Positions 1 to 9,606 of a stretch of DNA of 9,606 bases are shown here, one piece after another (position 1 is the first letter of the stretch; every line of letters starts with the position of its first letter). Below the pieces are notes generated by a model. It searched no databases and was not told where the DNA came from. It worked only from the letters and a program-made list of their open reading frames with translations. A program made the position numbers and the translations under genes. Source of the DNA: an archaeon (lineage in GTDB: Archaea; Thermoproteota; Bathyarchaeia; TCS64); the NCBI GenBank assembly GCA_020444005.1, contig JAHLLU010000055.1, positions 1 to 9,606 on the forward strand. Direction: 5' to 3'.

Positions 1-153
1 CCAGACACGGTTCTCGATAAATCTGAATTCGTACCAGCGGAAGCAACCAAACGATTCCCAGAAGGAATAATACATCTAGTGGTGAACGGTGCGGTTACAC
101 TTGAGGACCAAGAACATACGGGAGCAAGAGAAGGTCTGATACTGAGACTTTAA
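1..153 (+). CDS. N-acyl-D-amino-acid deacylase (amidohydrolase family), C-terminal fragment
   Basis: The reading frame is open from the first base and ends at TAA 151-153, giving the last 50 residues of a protein that begins outside the window. The fragment contains FPEGIIHLVVNGAVTLEDQ followed by HTGAREGLILRL. This matches the usual end of D-aminoacylases and related amidohydrolases (pattern YPEGI..V.VNG..V...G.HTGARPG..LR), which form the second half of the composite beta-sandwich domain. The family hydrolyses N-acyl-D-amino acids, or N-acylated D-amino-acid ends, to a free D-amino acid and a carboxylate. The metal ligands lie upstream and cannot be checked, so the exact substrate is open. 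A related amidohydrolase such as a dihydroorotase-like enzyme is possible but fits less well. The stop overlaps the stop of the convergent membrane-protein gene in the palindrome TTAA. Confidence 0.8.
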   Translation, partial: PDTVLDKSEFVPAEATKRFPEGIIHLVVNGAVTLEDQEHTGAREGLILRL

Positions 154-668
154 GTCTCTTCCTCAGAGGGCTCCTCAGCTGGTTTTTCTGCTTCTTTTTC
201 CGCTAGTTCTTTTTCTAGACGCTTTATGTTTTGCTTGGTGTAAATTGAGCCCATGAGGGAGCCACCTACCAATGCAAACAAGGTATAAGTATCACCTAGC
301 ACCCCTGCTCCGAAAAATATAAAATACACAACTTGCTGAATGAAGAAAGCTACCAATCCTGTTAATACCCCAAAACGGGTCATTTGGTCTAGTTCAACTT
401 TTCGTGTAGCTAATGAGCTACCCAAGATACCCCCCAATACATATAATGAGATGTAAAGCGCCCCGAACAAAGTTGGGTATGTATTGTATAGCTCCATACC
501 CAAGACAAGCCCAATGACCTCTATCAATAGAAAAGGCACTCCGAAGGCAACGCTTGCTCCCGCAAATAATATCTGGAATGATTTTTTCTGCTGGTCACTC
601 ATTAAAGGTCCACGGTTTAGTTTGGTTATGATGTATTTAAGACTCGGCACAGAGGACAGAATATTCAC
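150..668 (-). CDS. Small four-helix membrane protein with charged Glu-rich tail, function unknown
   Basis: I do not recognise the family. The long form has 172 residues and starts with GTG at 666-668, with AGGGGT about 8 bases upstream. An in-frame ATG at 600-602 (150 residues, beginning MSDQQKKSF) has a weak GGA upstream and is a serious alternative, because the first 22 residues are not typical of a membrane protein. Four hydrophobic segments lie at about residues 31-51, 61-83, 100-118 and 122-143. The last 30 residues are charged and probably helical, rich in Glu, Lys and Ala (KRLEKELAEKEAEK), and end in PAEEPSEEET. The basic stretch before the tail suggests the tail is cytoplasmic. The gene is divergent from the four-gene membrane operon and shares its 136-base promoter region, so the two may be co-regulated. 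Its stop overlaps that of the deacylase gene. Confidence 0.75.
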   Translation of the reverse strand: MNILSSVPSLKYIITKLNRGPLMSDQQKKSFQILFAGASVAFGVPFLLIEVIGLVLGMELYNTYPTLFGALYISLYVLGGILGSSLATRKVELDQMTRFGVLTGLVAFFIQQVVYFIFFGAGVLGDTYTLFALVGGSLMGSIYTKQNIKRLEKELAEKEAEKPAEEPSEEET

Positions 669-804: not shown

Positions 805-1587
805 ATGGCAATTCTAACAGAAGGAAGAATAGTACCCTTAGTTGCTCTTATTCTCGTTTGGGTCGCGGTCTATGTCGCGATCAACATGGGCAAAGCGGGC
901 AAGATAAAGGTACGACGAATAGCCGGTCTAGACGCAATCGAAGAAGTCGTTGGAAGAAGCGTAGAGATGGGACGCCCAGTATTCGACATCATAGGCATGG
1001 GTACATTCACTGACAGCTACGCGACACAAACGGTCGCAGGGCTCAGTATACTCAACTATGTAGCTGGTCTATCAGCGAGACTAGGCGCAGATCTAGTTGC
1101 ACCACAGGCAAGCGTAGACGTTATGCCTGTAGCAATTGAGCTGGTTCGAGACGCATACAACGTCGAGGGAAAACTCGATGAGTTGAATGTTGACGAACAA
1201 CTACCCTATCTATCTGGAACCCAGTTCGCCTGGGCGAGCGGAATCATCGGTATGGCAGCAAGACGCAAACCCGCTGGAAACATCATGATTGGCCCCTTCT
1301 GGGCAGAATCCATGATGTTCGCAGAGACGTTTGACAGAATTGGAGCCATGCAGGTCGGTGGAACCGCACGAACATACCAGATCCCATTCTTCGCGGCTCT
1401 ATGTGACTATTGTCTCATCGGTGAGGAGATCTTCGCCGCTGGTGCATACGTCTCTGGAGAGCCTTCCCAGATTGGTACAATTGCGGCCCAAGATTGGTAC
1501 AAGCTAGTGGCGATAGCACTCTCAATTGTGGGAGCCTTGCTATCAACCGTTGGCGTAAATATAATTGCGGAGCTGTTAGCGAGGTGA
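805..1587 (+). CDS. DUF6754-type membrane-anchored protein, first gene of membrane operon
   Basis: This 260-residue protein has a hydrophobic helix at about 9-28, a long middle domain and a second helix at about 234-255. Lys and Arg residues right after the first helix (KAGKIKVRR, 30-38) place the middle domain in the cytoplasm by the positive-inside rule. From memory, the conserved run IEEVVGRSVEMGRPV, the GG before the QIPFF segment and the acidic LIGEE motif (204-208) match the domain of unknown function DUF6754. No enzyme active site is recognised. Glu207 and Glu208, near Cys200, Asp201 and Cys203, are the most striking polar residues in an otherwise hydrophobic stretch. The start is ATG with GGAAGGA six bases upstream. 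The next gene begins 6 bases after the stop, and its SD (GAGGTGA) overlaps this stop codon, indicating coupled translation. The function is unknown; a structural or transport role in a complex with the next three products is likely. Confidence 0.8.
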   Translation: MAILTEGRIVPLVALILVWVAVYVAINMGKAGKIKVRRIAGLDAIEEVVGRSVEMGRPVFDIIGMGTFTDSYATQTVAGLSILNYVAGLSARLGADLVAPQASVDVMPVAIELVRDAYNVEGKLDELNVDEQLPYLSGTQFAWASGIIGMAARRKPAGNIMIGPFWAESMMFAETFDRIGAMQVGGTARTYQIPFFAALCDYCLIGEEIFAAGAYVSGEPSQIGTIAAQDWYKLVAIALSIVGALLSTVGVNIIAELLAR

Positions 1588-1593
1588 GTATGA

Positions 1594-2229
1594 TTGGACT
1601 ATAAGAGAGACATACCTTTGGCGATAACATTCTTAGTCGGAGTAATAGCCATCGGAGACTACTATACCGGAATCGAAGCAGTAACACAAACATTTAACGT
1701 GATCAAGAACTGGGGCATCGTCCTACAAGGATTCGCCTTAGGACTCGGAGCAGTAAACCTGTTCAGAGTACACGGTAGACGTGTCAGTGCAAGAAAGGAA
1801 GGAACAGATTGGGTTTTCAGCGCAGTGCTCCTAGTCATGCTAGCCGTTCACATAGTCATCGGACTAATGACAGGACAGTATGAGCAGGGAGAAACATACA
1901 ACTGGCTCTATAACTCAATCTACCTACCAATCAGCTCTACGATGTACAGTAGCCTAGCGTTCTACATGGCATACGGAGCCTACAAGGTTCTACGTGCCAG
2001 AAACTTTGACGCAGCGCTTCTATTCATCACAGCAGTTCTGGTAATCATCGGTAACACACCAATGTTCCCAGCTATTTACCCAGGGTTCTTCCACATGCGT
2101 GAATGGATCTTCGGCCCAATAGTTAGCGGAGCATATCGTGGCGTACGTATCGGTATCGGTATCGGAGCAGTAGTACTAGGAATTAAGACCCTGATCGGAA
2201 TGGAGACAGGGTACTTAGGGAGACGGTAA
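1594..2229 (+). CDS. Six-helix integral membrane protein of the DUF6754 operon
   Basis: The protein has 211 residues and starts with TTG at 1594. That start is supported by GAGGTGA (1581-1587) six bases upstream. The nearby ATG at 1590 is out of frame and stops after four codons. Six hydrophobic segments lie at about residues 7-24, 36-55, 73-93, 108-131, 138-158 and 184-203. The loop between helices 2 and 3 is basic (RVHGRRVSARK), so it is probably cytoplasmic and both ends are inside. The last helix contains a glycine repeat, IGIGIG, encoded by three tandem six-base units. The segment NTPMFPAIYPGFFHMREW between helices 5 and 6 is aromatic-rich and may sit at the outer membrane face. I do not recognise a named transporter family. 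Its place second in a tight operon implies that it is an integral core subunit of the complex. The TTG start may keep its level below that of the first gene. Confidence 0.8.
   Translation: MDYKRDIPLAITFLVGVIAIGDYYTGIEAVTQTFNVIKNWGIVLQGFALGLGAVNLFRVHGRRVSARKEGTDWVFSAVLLVMLAVHIVIGLMTGQYEQGETYNWLYNSIYLPISSTMYSSLAFYMAYGAYKVLRARNFDAALLFITAVLVIIGNTPMFPAIYPGFFHMREWIFGPIVSGAYRGVRIGIGIGAVVLGIKTLIGMETGYLGRR
2149..2166 (+). repeat. Short tandem repeat, (ATCGGT)x3 with one change
   Basis: Three six-base units read ATCGGT, ATCGGT and ATCGGA inside the six-helix protein gene and encode IGIGIG in its last membrane helix. Gain or loss of one unit would add or remove two residues without a frameshift. It may simply reflect a glycine-zipper helix rather than repeat expansion. 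Confidence 0.6.
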
Positions 2230-2231
2230 AA

Positions 2232-3065
2232 ATGTCCATATGGGAAAAATTAACCGGACTACCCCGTGAGATAGTCATGACCCTAGTAATGATCTCTATC
2301 ATTATACCGGCGCTAAACCCACTTGGCCTGCCCTTGATGACGGGTCAGATGAGCCAAGACTGGTATGATGCAGTTGATGCACTACCAGAAGGCTCAGTGA
2401 TCTTATTCGACATTGGATACGGTTCAGGAGGCTACCCAAGCCTAGGACCTGGAAACATCGCAGCTTTCCACCAGATGTTCGATAAGGACCTCAAAATCGT
2501 GATAATGGCTACAGCCCTTGAAGGAACACTAATGTATCCATTGGTTATGGCTGGGGTCGATCCAGAAGGTAACTATGGTGCAGTATATGGTGAAGACTAT
2601 GTCTTCATCGGCTACGTTGCGGGAACCCAGACAGCAATGGCTGGTGTTCTCGGAGACCTTCATGACCTAGTCACAAACGATTATCAAGGAAACCCAATAT
2701 CTAGCATGCCTATATTGGATGATGTAAACGGTGCAGATGACATCGACTTAGTTGCCTATGTAACTACAAGCGGTGACATTGCAGAAGGCTGGGTATACCA
2801 AGCCTACAGCCAGTATAGCATGGATGTTGTCGGTGGAACCCTAAGCATGATGACAACAAGCATCAAGCCTTACTATGACTCAGGACAGCTCCTGGGCATC
2901 ATGGATGGCATTAAGGGTGCAGCAGACCTTGAGTTCCTTACGGGACACGCGGGTGACGCAATCGTCAGCAGCGATATCTTGACGTTCTCGCAGACACTGG
3001 TACTGATCTTCATTGCGGTAGGAAATATTTCTTGGTTCATGTCACGAAAGGAGGTTAAGAGCTAA
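2232..3065 (+). CDS. Membrane-anchored protein with large external domain, DUF6754 operon
   Basis: This 277-residue protein has a helix at about 13-35, a soluble domain at about 40-245 and a second helix at about 249-268, followed by the short basic tail SRKEVKS. Basic residues before the first helix and after the second place both ends inside, so the soluble domain faces outward. That domain is acidic with few Lys or Arg, as expected for an exposed protein. It alternates beta-strand and helix patterns (VILFDIGYGSGG, KIVIMATALEGT, DYVFIGYVAG, IDLVAYVTTSGD), like a Rossmann-like or periplasmic-binding-like fold. From memory, similar proteins accompany DUF6754 proteins in other genomes, but I know no assigned function. 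The start is ATG, two bases after the previous stop, with GGGAG nine bases upstream. Its stop overlaps the next start (TAATG). A ligand-sensing or ligand-capturing subunit is the simplest guess. Confidence 0.8.
   Translation: MSIWEKLTGLPREIVMTLVMISIIIPALNPLGLPLMTGQMSQDWYDAVDALPEGSVILFDIGYGSGGYPSLGPGNIAAFHQMFDKDLKIVIMATALEGTLMYPLVMAGVDPEGNYGAVYGEDYVFIGYVAGTQTAMAGVLGDLHDLVTNDYQGNPISSMPILDDVNGADDIDLVAYVTTSGDIAEGWVYQAYSQYSMDVVGGTLSMMTTSIKPYYDSGQLLGIMDGIKGAADLEFLTGHAGDAIVSSDILTFSQTLVLIFIAVGNISWFMSRKEVKS
3049..3055 (+). promoter_or_regulatory. Strong SD sequence for the fourth operon gene
   Basis: AGGAGGT is a full-length SD match located inside the end of the preceding gene, with 9 bases before ATG 3065. 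It decides the start at 3065 over a second in-frame ATG at 3074 and suggests efficient reinitiation after the preceding stop. Confidence 0.8.
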
Positions 3066-3688
3066 TGGTAACGATGGATCCACAAATATGGTTGGCAGCC
3101 TTCTTCACCATAGCCGCCACAAGCTACGCGTTCAGAGACAACGCTGTATTCAAGTTCGCTGAGTACACGTTTATCGGGGTTGCGGCAGCTCACCAGATAG
3201 TCATGGGTGTCAAGAACATCCGTGATTATGGTTGGACAAAGATCATGGAAGGGCAGATCATCTATGTCGTGGTATTCGTACTCGGCATAATGCTCTATGC
3301 TCGTTTCCACCGAGAGTACTATTGGTTGTACAGGTTCCCCATCGCTTTCCTCGTCGGTAACGGCGTTGGAATCAGCATCAGGGCAGCCATACACAGCGAC
3401 TTTATAGTACAAATATCGGAGACAGCGAGAACCCCGCTCATAGCGGGAGACGCTATGGGAACCATAAACGCCATCATAACATTCGTGGGAGCCGTAACGG
3501 CGATATTCCATTTCATCTTTACGCAGGAGAAACTGCATCAAGGAACGATTGGATATATACCCAAGGTTGGACGATGGATGATGCTCCTTGCTTTCGGTGC
3601 TAGCTTCGGCAACACCGTCATGAGCAGGTTCGGAATGTACCAAGGAAGAGTAGTCTTCCTGCTACGAGACTGGCTACAAGTAATATAA
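3065..3688 (+). CDS. Second six-helix integral membrane protein, last gene of DUF6754 operon
   Basis: The protein has 207 residues. Hydrophobic segments lie at about 8-23, 29-49, 64-80, 91-108, 134-152 and 171-187. A conserved-looking C-terminal stretch, FGNTVMSRFGMYQGRVVFLL (181-200), has a small-residue helix followed by Arg188 and Arg195; from memory, homologous clusters carry a similar G.TVM.R....GR..FLL element. A polar loop at about 109-130 links helices 4 and 5. No substrate motif, cofactor site or nucleotide-binding motif is seen. The start ATG overlaps the previous stop by one base and has a strong SD. The gene is followed by a C-run and T-run, so the operon probably ends here. It is likely the second integral core subunit of the complex. 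A long open frame on the opposite strand across this gene is a shadow. Confidence 0.8.
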   Translation: MVTMDPQIWLAAFFTIAATSYAFRDNAVFKFAEYTFIGVAAAHQIVMGVKNIRDYGWTKIMEGQIIYVVVFVLGIMLYARFHREYYWLYRFPIAFLVGNGVGISIRAAIHSDFIVQISETARTPLIAGDAMGTINAIITFVGAVTAIFHFIFTQEKLHQGTIGYIPKVGRWMMLLAFGASFGNTVMSRFGMYQGRVVFLLRDWLQVI

Positions 3689-3753: not shown

Positions 3754-4128
3754 TTGTCTGAGAGAAAACCAAACGCCACAGACTATCTAGCATCAGCGGC
3801 ACTAAGCTATGCGATAATTTTCTTCTACATCAGAATAGCCAACACAGTCACTGTACCATGGCTCCTATCCTATGTGGTGTATTTCATTGCAGGAGCAGCC
3901 CCAACATACTTTGTTCTGAGGAGGCTTACAAGAGACCAGTTTCCAGTAGCCATATTATCTTCAGTTGTCAACTGGATGTTCACCTTCGTATGCCTTATCA
4001 CGTTCACTCAGGGGAACCCGATGACTTTCTTCAGGATGCTTTTTGTATTCTTCATGATGGGCGGCGTCTCAGTGGCTGTAATAACCATGAAGGCGCGGCT
4101 AAGCCCGAAGAAGAAGCCAGAGGACTAG
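3754..4128 (+). CDS. Small four-helix membrane protein, function unknown
   Basis: The protein has 124 residues with hydrophobic segments at about 11-30, 35-55, 64-84 and 91-112, and a short basic tail (KARLSPKKKPED). I do not recognise the family. The basic loop between helices 2 and 3 (RRLTRDQ) and the basic tail suggest that both termini are cytoplasmic. The start is TTG at 3754; the ATG at 3747 and GTG at 3742 lead to stops within a few codons, so no better start exists. The ribosome site is weak (GAGATGA, three bases before the start). It follows the membrane operon by 65 bases, past a terminator-like tract. Its size and fold are like the other four-helix protein at the left of the operon, though no sequence similarity is obvious. 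It may be an accessory of the same complex, which is inference from position only. Confidence 0.7.
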   Translation: MSERKPNATDYLASAALSYAIIFFYIRIANTVTVPWLLSYVVYFIAGAAPTYFVLRRLTRDQFPVAILSSVVNWMFTFVCLITFTQGNPMTFFRMLFVFFMMGGVSVAVITMKARLSPKKKPED

Positions 4129-4161: not shown

Positions 4162-4521
4162 ATGAGTGATTTCTTTTTCGGGGACGAGGAGCTAACAGAA
4201 GAAGAAGTTGACGAGATTATACTGGAAGCCGCGCTGAGGATACGAAAATATGGTATGGAGATGCCGGCGATTATGGCTTTGGAGAGCTTCAAGCCGCTTA
4301 TGTTTGTGGGCGGCGAGATGGCGCGGTTGACTCTTTCTCCGTTTTTCCCTATTTTTGGGGCTAATGTTGATCTCTGGGGTCAGAAGCTCATCTATGTTTT
4401 TGAGGAGAAAGAAAACGTGGATAAGTTGATCACGTTGTTGGAGAAGATGTCAACTGGTGAATATGAGGAAGAAACATCTGAGGAAGCCCCTGAAGAAGAC
4501 CCCGTAGAAGAAAAAAAGTAA
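4162..4521 (+). CDS. Small soluble protein with acidic C-terminal tail, function unknown
   Basis: The protein has 119 residues in three parts. An acidic, probably helical N-terminus (3-28) is followed by a moderately hydrophobic middle (32-80) with the motif GMEMPAIMALESFKPLMFVGG, then an amphipathic helix (81-96, EEKENVDKLITLLEKM). The tail (100-119) is nearly all Glu, Asp, Pro and Thr. The middle has no segment long and smooth enough for a sure membrane helix, so it may be peripheral. From memory, small proteins with a similar G.E.PAI..LE..KPL pattern and a terminal EN...LI..LE helix occur in other prokaryotes, with no function I can name. The start ATG appears leaderless. Its codons are G/T-rich, unlike the A/C-rich codons of the membrane genes before it. 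The acidic tail resembles that of the minus-strand membrane protein at the other side of the operon. Confidence 0.7.
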   Translation: MSDFFFGDEELTEEEVDEIILEAALRIRKYGMEMPAIMALESFKPLMFVGGEMARLTLSPFFPIFGANVDLWGQKLIYVFEEKENVDKLITLLEKMSTGEYEEETSEEAPEEDPVEEKK

Positions 4522-5030: not shown

Positions 5031-6503
5031 ATGACAGGTTACCGCGTATTATTTGGACAGATGATGCATGAAACAAACTCATTCAGCACCGTCAAAACAA
5101 CACTGGACCACTTCAGCCCCATGTATGGGGACAAGATAGTCGAGACCTTGAAGGGTACACGTAGTGCCATAGGAGGCTACGTTGATGTGCTTGAACGTGA
5201 GGGCATCGAGTATATTCCCACGATTGCCGCTGGGGCGACACCGGCAGGTGAACTTCGAAACGAGGATTATTGGCATATCGTGAATACCATCACTGATGGC
5301 ATCAAGAAAGCTGGGAAACTTGATGGCGTTTTGTTGGCGCTTCATGGTGCGATGATAGCTGAGGAGGTTCCTGAAGCTGAAGGGGTACTGCTACGGGAGG
5401 TGCGTAAGCTTGTTGGTGATACGCCGATTATCATTACTCTTGATCTTCATGGATTGATCTCTGATATGATTGTGGATCACTGTGACGCCATATTCGGATA
5501 TGACACAAATCCTCATGTTGACATGTATGAAAGAGCGGTCGAGGCCACAGAAACACTAGTAAAAACCATCAAAGGTGAACTCAAGCCAACAGTCGCACAC
5601 TGCAAACTACCTATGCTACCACCAACAATCAATCAACGCACCGCAGAGGGCCCAATGGTCAAGCTCCTTGAGAAGGCAAGAGAAATGGAGAAATCAACAG
5701 AGGTACTCAATGTATGCTTATTCCCGGCTTTCTCATATACTGATGTTGAACGATGTGGCTCAGACGTAGTTGCGGTCACAGACAATAACCCTGAGCTTGC
5801 TCAGAAACTCGCAAACGAGCTAGGAAAGTTGATGTGGAGTCTTCGTGAAGAGTTCCTCAAGCCATTAACGTCTATTGAGGATGCGGTGAGGATCGCGATG
5901 GAGGTACCGGAGGGTCCTGTGATTCTCGCTGATGTGGCAGATAACCCGGGTGGAGGTGCACCGGGTGATGGTACCGAGATTCTCAGGGAGTTATTGAAGA
6001 AGGGCGCCACGAATGTTGGTGTTGCTATCATAAAGGACCCGGAGGCGGTTCAGGAGGCCATCAATGTAGGTGTTCGTGGTAAGTTCTCCATGGAGATTGG
6101 GGCTAAAACTGATGATTTCCATGGTAAACCAATGATGGTCACTGGCACTGTACGTACTATTACTGATGGCGGGTTTATCCACAAAGCGATGGCTATTGGT
6201 GTACCCGCTGATGTCGGTAGAACAGCGGTGATCGCGGTAGAGGGAGTCGAGATAATTCTTACGGAGAAAAGCCATTCACCAAACGACCCGGAGATATTCA
6301 GAAGAAACGGCATCGAACCCACAGAAAAGAAAATACTAGTATTGAAGAGCAGGGGACACTTTAGAGCAGCCTACGAGCCATTCAGCAAAAAGATACTAGA
6401 GGTAGACGCCCCCGGCTTAACCACGCCCAATCTCTCATGGTTCACATATCGGAACATCAAGCGTCCTATGTGGCCCTTTGATAAAGAGGCATCTTTTGGT
6501 TAG
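5031..6503 (+). CDS. M81 family metallopeptidase (MlrC / microcystinase C-like)
   Basis: This 490-residue protein matches family M81 in length and motifs. The N-terminal domain opens with VLFGQMMHETNSF (His13-Glu14), then has ALHGAM (His105), ITLDLHG (Asp138, His140) and NPHVDMYERA (His162, Asp164). These His and Asp residues are the expected zinc ligands and catalytic surroundings. The C-terminal MlrC_C-type domain shows ADVADNPGGGAPGDGTEIL (from about 300) and the GAKTDDFHGKPM segment. MlrC of microcystin degraders cleaves linear peptides with D- or beta-linked residues; relatives in other microbes have unknown small-peptide or amide substrates. There is no signal peptide, so it acts in the cytoplasm. 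A D-aminoacylase gene lies 5 kb upstream, fitting scavenging of unusual peptides, though the two are not in an operon. Its TAG overlaps the stop of the convergent iron-sulfur protein gene. Codon style switches inside the gene from A/C-rich to G/T-rich and back. Confidence 0.9.
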   Translation: MTGYRVLFGQMMHETNSFSTVKTTLDHFSPMYGDKIVETLKGTRSAIGGYVDVLEREGIEYIPTIAAGATPAGELRNEDYWHIVNTITDGIKKAGKLDGVLLALHGAMIAEEVPEAEGVLLREVRKLVGDTPIIITLDLHGLISDMIVDHCDAIFGYDTNPHVDMYERAVEATETLVKTIKGELKPTVAHCKLPMLPPTINQRTAEGPMVKLLEKAREMEKSTEVLNVCLFPAFSYTDVERCGSDVVAVTDNNPELAQKLANELGKLMWSLREEFLKPLTSIEDAVRIAMEVPEGPVILADVADNPGGGAPGDGTEILRELLKKGATNVGVAIIKDPEAVQEAINVGVRGKFSMEIGAKTDDFHGKPMMVTGTVRTITDGGFIHKAMAIGVPADVGRTAVIAVEGVEIILTEKSHSPNDPEIFRRNGIEPTEKKILVLKSRGHFRAAYEPFSKKILEVDAPGLTTPNLSWFTYRNIKRPMWPFDKEASFG

Positions 6504-7255
6504 TATCCTCTTTTCTCTTTTCCATAGGGACAGGCTTTCTGGCATGCTGTGCACATGAGTACACTGTTTTCGGTAAACCGTGGCATGTATTTTTTGAATA
6601 CTTCGTCAGGTATGTCTCTAAAGTCTGTGAATGGGAGATTCTCTTCTATTAGTTGTGCTAGTTCTTTCTCAGAGATTCCTATGAGGCATTTTTCTGGGTC
6701 AACAATATATGAGGATAACGCTCCCGTTGGACACGCATCAATACATTTTGTGCAGTCAACGCAGAGATCCTTTGTGTACTCTTTATCGGGTATTAGTGGT
6801 GCATCGGTTAGTATACTTTGAAGCCTGATCCATGGACCATACTCTGGGTTGATGATGAGGCTGTTCTTGCCCATTGAGCCTAATCCGGCTAGTTGAGCCA
6901 TTCTTTTCTGGCTGAGATTGAATGGGTAGATAATACACTTGTAGCCTTTTTTCTCAAGTTGGCGCATTACTCGTCTTGCGTAGAGTCTCATTCGTTCGTA
7001 TACCGGGTACTCGATCTCCCCGTTGTGGGCGATCTGTGCTTCATGAATATCATCAAAGGCATGATAGCCAAGCATCAATATGCTCTTGGGGTTGTCCATG
7101 TAATCGGTGGTTTTCTTTGATTTCTGCTTGATTTGCCACCCGATCCAGTACTCTGGGATACTATCGATGGATTCAGGTGAGAGCACTCCAACTAGTTCAG
7201 CTCCATGGCTCAGAGCGTACTCCTTGATTTCTTCTGTGAGTTCCTCTGGATTCAT
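6500..7255 (-). CDS. Short QueG-like protein with two [4Fe-4S] cluster motifs
   Basis: This 251-residue protein carries CVDCTKCIDACP (Cys165, 168, 171, 175) and then PEKC (Cys190) with CTACQKACP (Cys235, 238, 242). Together these are eight ligands for two [4Fe-4S] clusters. The central AQLAGLGSMGKNSLII (120-135) and YGPWIRLQSILTD (139-151) are hallmarks of the epoxyqueuosine reductase (QueG) and reductive dehalogenase superfamily, where this part binds cobalamin. At 251 residues it lacks the C-terminal HEAT-like extension of true QueG (about 380 residues), and archaea are not known to make queuosine. It is therefore better called a QueG-like oxidoreductase of unknown substrate. It is probably soluble. 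The ATG (7253-7255) has a TATAAA-like box 25 bases upstream and no SD, so it is probably leaderless. It runs toward the M81 gene and overlaps it by four bases (TTAG). Confidence 0.85.
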   Translation of the reverse strand: MNPEELTEEIKEYALSHGAELVGVLSPESIDSIPEYWIGWQIKQKSKKTTDYMDNPKSILMLGYHAFDDIHEAQIAHNGEIEYPVYERMRLYARRVMRQLEKKGYKCIIYPFNLSQKRMAQLAGLGSMGKNSLIINPEYGPWIRLQSILTDAPLIPDKEYTKDLCVDCTKCIDACPTGALSSYIVDPEKCLIGISEKELAQLIEENLPFTDFRDIPDEVFKKYMPRFTENSVLMCTACQKACPYGKEKRGY

Positions 7256-7263
7256 TGTCTTAG

Positions 7264-7299
7264 AATCACATAACTGGTTTATAGCATTAAGGTGTGATT
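7264..7299 (-). promoter_or_regulatory. Promoter of the QueG-like gene, inverted repeat around TATA box
   Basis: On the minus strand CTATAAACC (TATA core at 7278-7283) lies 25 bases before ATG 7255. Seven-base arms AATCACA (7264-7270) and TGTGATT (7293-7299) flank it symmetrically, with the centre of symmetry on the TATA box. The outer arm overlaps the encoded CCA end of the tRNA gene, so this promoter is squeezed into the 43 bases between tRNA and gene. The arms may be chance. Confidence 0.4.
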
Positions 7300-7374
7300 G
7301 GCGCCCTGGAGAAGACTCGAACTTCTGACCATCTGCTTAACAGGCAGGTGCTCTACCTACTGAGCTACCAAGGC
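7299..7374 (-). tRNA. tRNA-Asn (anticodon GUU) with encoded CCA
   Basis: The minus strand folds as a full cloverleaf. The acceptor GCCTTGG pairs with CCAGGGC (one T-G wobble). The D-stem GCTC/GAGC encloses AGTAGGTA. The anticodon loop CTGTTAA places GTT at 7339-7341 after U33. The variable loop has five bases, and the T-arm AGAAG/CTTCT encloses TTCGAGT. Position 73 is G and is followed directly by CCA (7299-7301), so the tail is genome-encoded. There is no intron. The first anticodon-stem pair is a C27-A43 mismatch. The acceptor starts with G1-C72 rather than the U1-A72 pair that bacterial GatCAB uses for recognition, in keeping with archaeal tRNAs. The gene sits downstream of gatB on the same strand. 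Confidence 0.95.
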
Positions 7375-7547: not shown

Positions 7548-8957
7548 CTAGTTTTCCTTCAACGCCTCCAACACAAGCTCTCTAACAGTATTAGCCGCCG
7601 CCCGCGCACGGACCTTGCGCAACACCTGACCGATAAGATACTCAGCCGCCTTCGTCTTACCAGACCTGTAATCATCAACAGCCTTCTGGTTCTCAGAGAC
7701 AACCTCACCAACAACCACCTGCAGTTCATCAACAGGCAGCAAGGCGAGGTTCTTCTCCTCCACCAGCTTCCGTGGTGATTTCCCTGTCTTCACGTAGTCT
7801 TTGATGAGTTCCTTGGCTAGTCTTTCACTGATGGTTCCGTCATCCATCATGGTGAGTAGTTCTGTGAATGTCTCTGGTGCGACGCTGCTTTCTTCGAGGC
7901 TCATTCCTTCGTAGTTGAGGCTCTTCAACAGGTAGGTGACAAGCCAGTTAGCTACAGTCTTTGAATCAGGATAGAGTTCACAGGATTTTTCGTAGAAGAT
8001 GCTCATTCTTAGTCCAGTGTTGACGATGATGTCGCTCTGGAAACGAGTTATACCATACTGATCAACCAAACGCTGTATCCTTTGATCAGGCAACTCAGGC
8101 ATAGATGCTCTGAGTCCACTAACCAATTCCTCACTGAGATGTATCTGGGTCAAATCCGGCTCAGCGATATACCCATAGTCCTCTTCCTGCTCCTTGAGCC
8201 TGAGAGTGCTTGTTACACCTGTCTCAGCGTCAAAGTGACGAGTCTCACGGACAATGGGTAACCCCATGTTCACTGCGCTGCGTTGTCTGACGACCTCATA
8301 GTTGAGTGCTTTTTCCACGTTCCTGAACCCGGTGATGTTCTTGACCTCGACACGGTTGCCTCCATCAATGCTGATGTTGGCGTCAACACGTAGTGAACCT
8401 TCTCCGCTTGGATCATAGACTCCCAGATGCTCAAGGATCAGGCTCAGCTTCTTGAGGAAATCACGCGCCTCCTCAGTAGACTCGATATCAGGCTCGGTGA
8501 CAATCTCCACCAAAGGCACACCAGCCCTGTTATAATCGATAAGGGTCTCACGGGCGTTTGTGATTCCACCGCCTACGTGAACTAGTTTAGCTGGGTCTTC
8601 CTCAATGTGTACACGTGTGATACCTACCCGGTGGTCTCCAACCATCAGGTAACCGCCTTCAGCTAAGGGTACCTCGTACTGGGTGATCTGATAGTTTTTC
8701 GCCATATCAGGGTAGAAATAGTTCTTCCTGCTGAACCTGATAATAGGCTTGATGCTGCTCTCTAGAGCTATGCCTATTGCTATTCCGTGTTCAACGGCTT
8801 TCCTGTTGAGTTTTGGTTTGCTACCGGGATAGCCTAGACAGATTGGGCATACCGCTGTGTTTGGCTCAAGATCATCGATTTCCGTAGTACAGCTGCAGAA
8901 GAGCTTGCTCTCTGTGTTTAGCTGTACGTGTATCTCTAGTCCTATGGTTGCCTTCAC
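7548..8957 (-). CDS. gatB: Asp-tRNA(Asn)/Glu-tRNA(Gln) amidotransferase subunit B
   Basis: GatB binds the misacylated tRNA, activates its Asp or Glu side chain with ATP, and receives ammonia from GatA. The protein starts MKATIGLEIHVQLNTESK, the family N-terminus. A zinc-type set CSC (Cys21, Cys23) and CPIC (Cys37, Cys40) follows, then the cradle motifs GSLRVDANIS and RVEVKNITGFRNVEKAL, the helical domain and a C-terminal YqeY-like tail (VLRKVRARAAANTVRELVLE). I chose GTG 8955-8957 (469 residues). It has GGGAGGT nine bases upstream and overlaps the gatA stop as GTGA. The longer GTG at 8973-8975 would add MGGRKP, encoded by the SD itself. The gene is translationally coupled to gatA, and tRNA-Asn lies downstream. 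Tail activity cannot be tested here. Synonymous codon style changes in blocks along the gene. Confidence 0.95.
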   Translation of the reverse strand: MKATIGLEIHVQLNTESKLFCSCTTEIDDLEPNTAVCPICLGYPGSKPKLNRKAVEHGIAIGIALESSIKPIIRFSRKNYFYPDMAKNYQITQYEVPLAEGGYLMVGDHRVGITRVHIEEDPAKLVHVGGGITNARETLIDYNRAGVPLVEIVTEPDIESTEEARDFLKKLSLILEHLGVYDPSGEGSLRVDANISIDGGNRVEVKNITGFRNVEKALNYEVVRQRSAVNMGLPIVRETRHFDAETGVTSTLRLKEQEEDYGYIAEPDLTQIHLSEELVSGLRASMPELPDQRIQRLVDQYGITRFQSDIIVNTGLRMSIFYEKSCELYPDSKTVANWLVTYLLKSLNYEGMSLEESSVAPETFTELLTMMDDGTISERLAKELIKDYVKTGKSPRKLVEEKNLALLPVDELQVVVGEVVSENQKAVDDYRSGKTKAAEYLIGQVLRKVRARAAANTVRELVLEALKEN

Positions 8958-9606
8958 AGGTTTTCTACCTCCCACGCTGCCCTAAGCATCGTATGTTCCT
9001 GTAGGTGATCAGCCATCAAGTGAAGCCCAACGGGCATGTCCTCTGATGTCCCACATGGCACTGAGACCATGGGTATCCCTGCGAGGTTAGGTGCAACCGT
9101 TAAGATATCCATCATATAATGCTGGATAGGCTCAAGTTGCTCGATCTCATCAAACCGTGGCGCAACCACAGGCATTGTTGGTGCAGCCAAGACATCAAAC
9201 GCGTGTTTGAAGTCCTCGATAACCTTGGTCCTGACCTTTAACGCCTTCAAGTAGTAAGCGTCTCGGTAACCAGCCATCCTTGTGAATGTACCAAGCATCA
9301 CCCGTCGCTTGCTCTCGTCTCCAAAGCCAAGGGTTCTGATCTTGCTGAAGTATTGGTTAAAGTCGCCTTCAATGGGCTCCTGTAACCCGTAACGTAGTCC
9401 ACTGAACTTGGATAGGTTTGTTGACGCCTCAGCCATTGCGATGATATAGTAGCTGCTTAGCGCGTACTTTGTGTGAGGCAGACTAACATCAACGAGTTTT
9501 GCACCCTTTGATTCAAGCTTTTTGAGTGTACTCCAGATGGTCTTCTCGACTTCTGAGTTTATTCCCTCACCATAATATTCCTTGGGTACGCCTAACTTGA
9601 GCCCCT
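8954..9606 (-). CDS. gatA: Asp-tRNA(Asn)/Glu-tRNA(Gln) amidotransferase subunit A, C-terminal part
   Basis: The frame is open to the window edge, giving the last 216 residues of GatA; the start lies beyond 9606. The visible part begins GLKLGVPKEYYGEG, continues through VSLPHTKYALSSYYIIA and AEASTNLSKFSGLRYG, then DVLAAPTMPVVAP, and ends with APNLAGIPMVSVPCG and MPVGLHLMAD. All are standard GatA landmarks of the amidase signature family. The Ser-cisSer-Lys catalytic triad is in the missing N-terminal half. GatA releases ammonia from glutamine or asparagine and channels it to GatB. The internal ATG at 9436 lies in the middle of the conserved YYIIA-MAEAS block and is not the start. The TGA stop (8954-8956) overlaps the gatB start. 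gatC is not seen and may lie upstream. Confidence 0.95.
   Translation of the reverse strand, partial: GLKLGVPKEYYGEGINSEVEKTIWSTLKKLESKGAKLVDVSLPHTKYALSSYYIIAMAEASTNLSKFSGLRYGLQEPIEGDFNQYFSKIRTLGFGDESKRRVMLGTFTRMAGYRDAYYLKALKVRTKVIEDFKHAFDVLAAPTMPVVAPRFDEIEQLEPIQHYMMDILTVAPNLAGIPMVSVPCGTSEDMPVGLHLMADHLQEHTMLRAAWEVENL
8967..8973 (-). promoter_or_regulatory. SD sequence that sets the gatB start
   Basis: The minus strand reads GGGAGGT with nine bases to GTG 8957. It lies inside the gatA coding end. It makes the start at 8957, with a four-base overlap to gatA, more likely than the upstream GTG at 8975. Confidence 0.75.

Follow-up and report, generated by a model that had tools for sequence, protein, structure and literature searches.

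A conserved four-gene DUF6754 membrane unit and its GlmL/MutL-like and barrel-sandwich partners in archaea and bacteria

What is the function of four tightly packed genes that encode two membrane-anchored domains and two multi-helix membrane proteins? The question is raised by positions 805–3688 of a Bathyarchaeia contig (JAHLLU010000055.1; the window is the whole analyzed stretch of 9,606 nucleotides). The genes, here called A (805–1587), B (1594–2229), C (2232–3065), and D (3065–3688), all lie on the plus strand, and the listing of open reading frames (ORFs) reproduces the spacing given in a preliminary description of this DNA, namely gaps of 6 and 2 bases followed by a 1-base C/D overlap. 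In relatives, we find the same quartet multiplied within some genomes, often beside catabolic genes, and nearly all of the hosts sampled also encode two soluble proteins, one GlmL/MutL-like (G) and one of the barrel-sandwich type (H). The best explanation of the whole, which we consider evenly poised between right and wrong, is a solute importer that draws on a shared module of G, H, and a small soluble protein, F.

A conserved quartet of membrane proteins

Subunit A (260 amino acids) is a DUF6754 protein (PF20539; E 1.1e-74; 251.2 bits versus a gathering score of 27; profile positions 7–256 of 257), in which terminal membrane helices flank a predicted cytosolic Rossmann-like domain. In C (277 amino acids), two end helices flank an acidic Rossmann-like domain predicted to face outward. 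B (211 amino acids, TTG start) and D (207 amino acids) are predicted membrane proteins of six and about six helices, respectively, with homologs in the quartets of relatives. The literature searched contained no paper naming DUF6754 or PF20539, a family without described function. For B, C, and D, neither Pfam nor NCBIfam yielded a match over its curated cut-off (the TMD0_ABC match of B reached 14.5 bits versus 27). No PDB sequence match was found for B (profile search, up to E 1) or D, and no solved relative by sequence for A as a single sequence or for G; the A profile, C, and H matched PDB entries only at E > 0.01. The preliminary description gave each gene its own Shine-Dalgarno sequence, and by eye purine-rich, ribosome-site-like stretches do precede the starts, with that of D (AAAGGAGGT) the clearest and that of C the weakest.

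Averaged over each family, hydropathy places two strong segments in A and in C, one at either end, in agreement with the double anchoring proposed earlier for both. The same averages give six segments in B and seven over threshold in D (the weakest at 1.03), while single sequences at a stricter threshold give fewer, five for B and three for D. Six helices in each, as first described, are therefore likely from the family averages and fall short in the single sequences. The distribution of charge fits the proposed placement of one domain inside (A) and one outside (C): between its end helices, with one hydrophobic segment excluded, window C has 4 K/R versus 28 D/E. The models of A and C show similarity to nucleotide-binding Rossmann-like folds, among them Sir2 and transhydrogenase domain III. 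The idea that A shares its origin with C, or B with D, was considered and rejected, as profile comparisons were non-significant (best A–C P 0.048, over the first Rossmann unit). In WOR-3 and Hydrothermota, A (L075, L076, L078) has about 110–130 extra residues ahead of the DUF6754 domain, which spans residues 126–375 of 391 in L076:1991-3163.

Searches for A homologs found at least 523 sequences (among at most 7999 candidates) and 155 sequences, and alignments were made of window A with 47 (A1) or 44 (A2) of 120 listed homologs. Residues E47, R51, E54, D201, E207, and E208 of A are invariant. Species-representative genomes were scanned with an alignment of A, and the best 80 of 188 relatives gave 79 distinct loci; several gene calls are longest frames, whose starts may be too early. 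Archaeal hosts of the quartet are Bathyarchaeota, Culexarchaeia, Desulfurococcales, and Sulfolobales metagenome-assembled genomes (MAGs), and bacterial hosts are Bacillota (Fermentithermobacillaceae, Symbiobacterium, and others), WOR-3, Hydrothermota, and Cloacimonetes. B, C, and D follow A on the same strand in 74 of 74 cases where A has at least 200 amino acids and 3 kb of downstream room (14 A genes lacking this room were set aside), and all 222 gaps between quartet genes are 100 bases or shorter (median 6). The preliminary description had made its complex depend on co-occurrence of the four genes in other genomes, and they do co-occur, in the order A-B-C-D each time.

The subunits also diverge together. 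Among copies within one genome, pairwise subunit identities correlate (Spearman 0.44–0.69 in genome G009 and 0.32–0.58 in genome G028), and in both genomes 0 of 2000 permutations reached the observed A–C correlation, so the subunits have not been reshuffled between copies. For each of six reciprocal-best quartet pairs between G009 and G028, all four subunits indicate the same partner quartet. The quartet is obligate as a gene set, and its constant order and correlated identities argue, in line with the four-subunit complex proposed at the outset, that A-B-C-D almost certainly form one obligate membrane complex.

Degenerate remnants, either part of A together with part of D or a B-B-C run that lacks A, lie beside complete copies at L027, L030, and L080, and G009 includes two fragmentary A matches. 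Such remnants beside complete quartets suggest that copies are gained and lost. One contig labeled Aquificota (L004) may be a misbinned archaeal contig, because its A–F are 75–82% identical to Bathyarchaeota-like genes, among the proteins compared.

Soluble partners in the same genomes

Three soluble proteins accompany the quartet. F (4162–4521, plus strand) is an acidic protein of 119 amino acids with no Pfam match; its relatives follow D in archaea and, in bacteria, sit between two G–H pairs (e.g., L052_16762, E 4.2e-15). The gene order in L092 is G-H-F-G-H, and at a Clostridia locus PALP, C26, S58, asparaginase II, M55, and M20 genes run into A-B-C-D-G-H-F-G-H. G (about 605–640 amino acids) is GlmL/MutL-like with a C-terminal extension, and H (about 380–450 amino acids) is a barrel-sandwich protein. 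Both lie within 10 kb of the quartet in 26 of 79 loci. The early remark that no ATPase is nearby thus holds inside the window but not in these relatives, where the GlmL/MutL-like protein has an ATP-binding motif.

G belongs to Pfam MutL (PF13941; 389 to 431 bits versus a gathering score of 27; 3e-116) but stays under the NCBIfam cut-offs, with at best 219.5/475 bits for GlmL, 211.6/600 for Or-4, and 159.3/204.05 for the GlmL-family model. Its first phosphate motif is retained in 36 of 37 sequences and the second, GVDxGGATTD, in 24 of 25 bacterial ones; bacterial G has the two phosphate motifs known from the actin/hexokinase/Hsp70 fold. H comprises one or two barrel-sandwich domains and a KOW-like C-terminal end with weak NusG/SPT5 matches (E 0.016–0.43). 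Its double-barrel form matches RnfC_N over the Pfam cut-off (7.9e-11), NQRA_N weakly, and rnfC under cut-off. H differs from RnfC and NqrA in having no iron-sulfur motif and in its KOW-like end, and the idea that H is a biotin or lipoyl carrier was rejected, as none of 33 H sequences has the lysine motif. In the literature searched, we found nothing on PF13941, nor anything that treats MutL together with glutamate mutase and a reactivase or that links ASKHA with a transporter and a membrane complex.

Co-occurrence was counted in samples of related genomes, some of them common to both archaeal draws, without phylogenetic correction. MutL is present in 27 of the 28 genomes reached via A-bearing loci, and H in 29 of 30 A genomes (those 28 and two more), the sole miss being a 0.7-Mb partial genome. 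Among 151 genomes of the Bathyarchaeia class, 36 have A, 38 have H, and 34 have both (one of these, G413, by a short H fragment), so that H is found in 34 of the 36 genomes with A and in 4 of the 115 that lack A. A Bacillota class of 151 genomes gives 49 with A, 55 with H, and 48 with both, or 48 of 49 A-bearing versus 7 of 102 A-less genomes; MutL is over cut-off in 77 of the 151, covering 49 of 49 A genomes. Among 200 Thermoproteota, A occurs in four genomes and H in the same four (0 of 196 without A), which are also the ones with MutL at E < 1e-100; matches to MutL at E <= 0.001 extend to 26 of 200, with a fifth genome marginally over cut-off. The presence of A is patchy, yet its pairing with H recurs in all three samples. 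The quartet depends on G–H at the level of the genome, and this pattern makes G and H very probable functional partners of A-B-C-D.

Copies, neighbors, and possible functions

Complete quartets number 12 in G009 and 15 in G028. Matches to A reach 14–16 per genome (at least 16 in G238, where 16 of 33 candidates were scored), and strong G matches are fewer: copy number outruns G in G006 (seven full A matches and one MutL) and in G023 (six and one). Among copies within a genome, the cytosolic domain of A is the best conserved soluble part (identity 0.45–0.55), and the outer residues 35–200 of C are at 0.28–0.34.

Many copies adjoin catabolic genes, which are not the same from one copy to the next. 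Adjoining the quartets of G009 and G028 are a phosphomethylpyrimidine kinase and a hydroxyethylthiazole kinase in L086; a glycyl-radical enzyme, an activase-like radical SAM protein, and a proline-racemase-family protein in L097 (L063 is arranged similarly); an aminotransferase-class protein and a zinc dehydrogenase in L083, which we take to resemble the threonine dehydrogenase pathway; PALP and beta-eliminating-lyase proteins in L103; and creatininase in L088 and L105. The 95 nearest neighbors (105 chosen by script minus ten that resembled antisense frames) include four amidohydrolases, four M20, three TldD/PmbA, two creatininase, and two S9 proteins, and the 133 neighbors in other genomes (one per side, at least 150 amino acids, with E-, F-, G-, H-, and P-type genes skipped) include nine amidohydrolases and three M24 proteins. 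Each such family occurs at most once, among the families listed, in 100 control proteins taken at the centers of 20 regions in G009 and G028, a choice slightly different from that of the neighbors. Of the clusters within 10 kb, amidohydrolase representatives fall in 11/79 and 7/79 loci and the M20 cluster in 7/79. A membrane ClpP-like protease of the SDH type lies near the quartet at L091:8562-9497 and L103:5997-6929, judged by position and size; the family accounts for 2 of the 95 neighbors.

Many copies, often beside catabolic genes, agree with the transporter-like character noted in the preliminary description, and we lean slightly toward A-B-C-D being a substrate-specific importer. Each quartet, with about 16 helices, would import small organic solutes (amino-acid-like, N-acylated, or peptide-like). 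The outward Rossmann-like domain of C would capture the solute, B and D would form the membrane path, and the conserved cytosolic Rossmann-like domain of A would be the coupling face. One to many quartets per genome would use the common soluble module of G, H, and F, docking from the cytosol. Conservation of A and variability of C among copies agree with C setting the specificity and A facing a common partner. It is from this pattern, together with multiplication beside catabolic genes, that we infer uptake, its direction, and the roles of C and A. Coupling of G–H through A is a tentative proposal, to be held less firmly than the importer itself.

Several observations weigh against this account. 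The membrane helices of A, at an identity of 0.21–0.33 among copies, vary more than the outer domain of C, which for this reason was rejected as the most variable part overall. Fold comparison gave A and C weak matches only, none of them reaching E <= 0.001 in Foldseek (missing fold matches count as no evidence of differing folds). Some quartet copies are without a catabolic neighbor, the controls also hold catabolic genes, including one M81 peptidase, and the family counts of neighbors and controls were compared without a significance test. Nor does each orthologous quartet keep its neighbors, an idea that we rejected: by eye, a recognizable adjacent gene is kept in two of the six reciprocal-best pairs between G009 and G028, a creatininase in one and a MarR-like gene in the other. 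The window itself contains neither G nor H. Finally, 12 of 12 archaeal G sequences have other residues at the two aspartate positions of the second phosphate motif (GVGxGGATTN; e.g., L005, L060, L058, L055, L043, L079), which makes ATP hydrolysis by archaeal G doubtful; ATP binding and gating are possible for it. That G–H power or gate transport via ATP binding or hydrolysis is speculative because archaeal G lacks these aspartates.

An outside domain joined to a conserved inside domain would also suit a family of membrane sensors or receptors, in which C senses an outside ligand and A signals to a cytosolic G-H-F switch. Some copies adjoin regulators (MarR-like and IclR-like genes), and an archaeal G that could bind but hardly hydrolyze ATP would serve as such a switch. 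We regard this as improbable, since two six-helix subunits per unit far exceed the needs of a receptor, and since beside ThiD/ThiM-like or glycyl-radical operons no other transporter was recognized by eye among the listed genes. That the quartet is an exporter or channel is the least probable of the accounts considered: sequence does not fix direction, but the neighbors are catabolic rather than biosynthetic or resistance genes, and an outward domain of such size usually serves capture.

The nucleotide-binding folds resembled by A and C, and the RnfC_N match of one H type (with rnfC under cut-off), are what would be expected of a membrane enzyme or a redox- or ion-coupled complex with G–H, comparable to Rnf, Nqr, or transhydrogenase, in which nucleotides would be bound by A and C, and H would be the RnfC-like part. 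This is about as improbable as a sensor. Cysteines are sparse (family means 0.8 to 3.3 per protein), family scans of A–D, G, and H found no iron-sulfur or flavin family, the domain of C is predicted to lie outside, where nucleotides are scarce, and a dozen or more diverged copies are unlike a respiratory complex. Marginally less probable again is that G simply reactivates cobalamin aminomutases as GlmL does and is linked to A-B-C-D only through an amino-acid-fermenting lifestyle. The strong membership of G in Pfam MutL and its resemblance to NCBIfam GlmL and the ornithine Or-4 protein would follow directly. However, just one of 30 A genomes has a match to glutamate mutase E (PF06368) over cut-off (a search that did not include ornithine and lysine aminomutases), and a plain glutamate-mutase reactivase role was rejected as the leading interpretation for that reason. 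In addition, G is under all three NCBIfam cut-offs and adjoins A-B-C-D in both archaea and bacteria, and clear MutL is confined to the four A genomes, 4/4, among 200 Thermoproteota, the fifth being marginal.

If the quartet is an importer, it is similar to group II energy-coupling factor (ECF) transporters, in which many substrate-specific membrane parts are encoded beside pathways and one shared cytosolic module is encoded elsewhere; the copy numbers of quartet and G fit this shared-module pattern. The components differ. The ATP-binding cassette (ABC) ATPase, EcfT, and S-component families of ECF transporters were not found in A–D, and ten scanned window proteins (including A–F) and the G and H of relatives gave no ABC ATPase or EcfT family match. 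The specific part would here be four proteins, including an outward soluble domain, and the shared partner a GlmL-like and a barrel-sandwich protein. Tripartite ATP-independent periplasmic (TRAP), tripartite tricarboxylate (TTT), and ABC importers have in common with the proposed importer an outward capture domain with membrane subunits. A–D match none of their Pfam or NCBIfam families, and by the window family scan the quartet is encoded without an ABC nucleotide-binding subunit. G shares Pfam membership and the first phosphate motif with GlmL/MutL but is longer and partnered with H and A-B-C-D. Rnf and Nqr complexes are set apart by iron-sulfur or flavin families that the quartet and G–H lack.

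The seven families (A, B, C, D, F, G, and H) make up a system found across two domains of life without a described function; B, C, D, F, and most H forms belong to no curated family in the scans run, and some small genomes hold a dozen or more copies of the quartet. If it imports solutes, genome-based metabolic models miss uptake routes of uncultured fermenters among Bathyarchaeota, Fermentithermobacillaceae, and WOR-3. A far-reaching version, which we think unlikely, is a new importer class common to archaea and bacteria, in which one cytosolic motor of ASKHA-fold and barrel-sandwich proteins drives or gates every substrate-specific version, up to at least 15–16 of them in a genome. To our knowledge, such a class would be without precedent among transport systems in being coupled to an ASKHA-fold protein and not to a P-loop ATPase or ion gradient, and energy coupling or gating by a GlmL-like partner would be a mechanism unlike those of known transporters. 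The long GlmL/MutL branch gains a testable role apart from cobalamin mutases, and the tight co-occurrence of A and H makes the dependence directly testable.

Other genes of the window

Between D and F lies E (3754–4128, plus strand), a small membrane protein of 124 amino acids with four hydrophobic segments by hydropathy. It has 12 homologous ORFs among the fetched loci, mainly beside Bathyarchaeota quartets. A divergent membrane protein of 172 amino acids (150–668, minus strand) belongs to the same broad small-protein family and is found repeatedly upstream of the quartet in Bathyarchaeota, with 18 ORFs in 13 loci; it and E fall in one cluster spanning 18 loci.

Downstream of F, an M81 metallopeptidase, or MlrC-like protein, is encoded at 5031–6503 on the plus strand (PF07364, 1.9e-92; PF07171, 4.9e-56), and M81-related genes occur in 6 of 79 loci. 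M81 peptidases were rejected as the key neighbor of the quartet, with 2 among the 133 neighbors (one in L001, the window's close relative) and 1 among the 100 controls; adjacency is weak evidence because M81 is also among the controls. The minus strand then carries a 4Fe-4S protein (6500–7255), which resembles the QueG and reductive dehalogenase families far under curated cut-offs, tRNA-Asn (7299–7374), and, directly after it, two genes (7548–8975 and 8954–9604) that by eye are GatB- and GatA-like amidotransferase subunits. A close relative of the window, the Bathyarchaeota MAG locus L001, has an A that is 95% identical to window A, and the two have in common the order A-B-C-D-E-F, a minus-strand gene of 122 amino acids, and the M81 peptidase.

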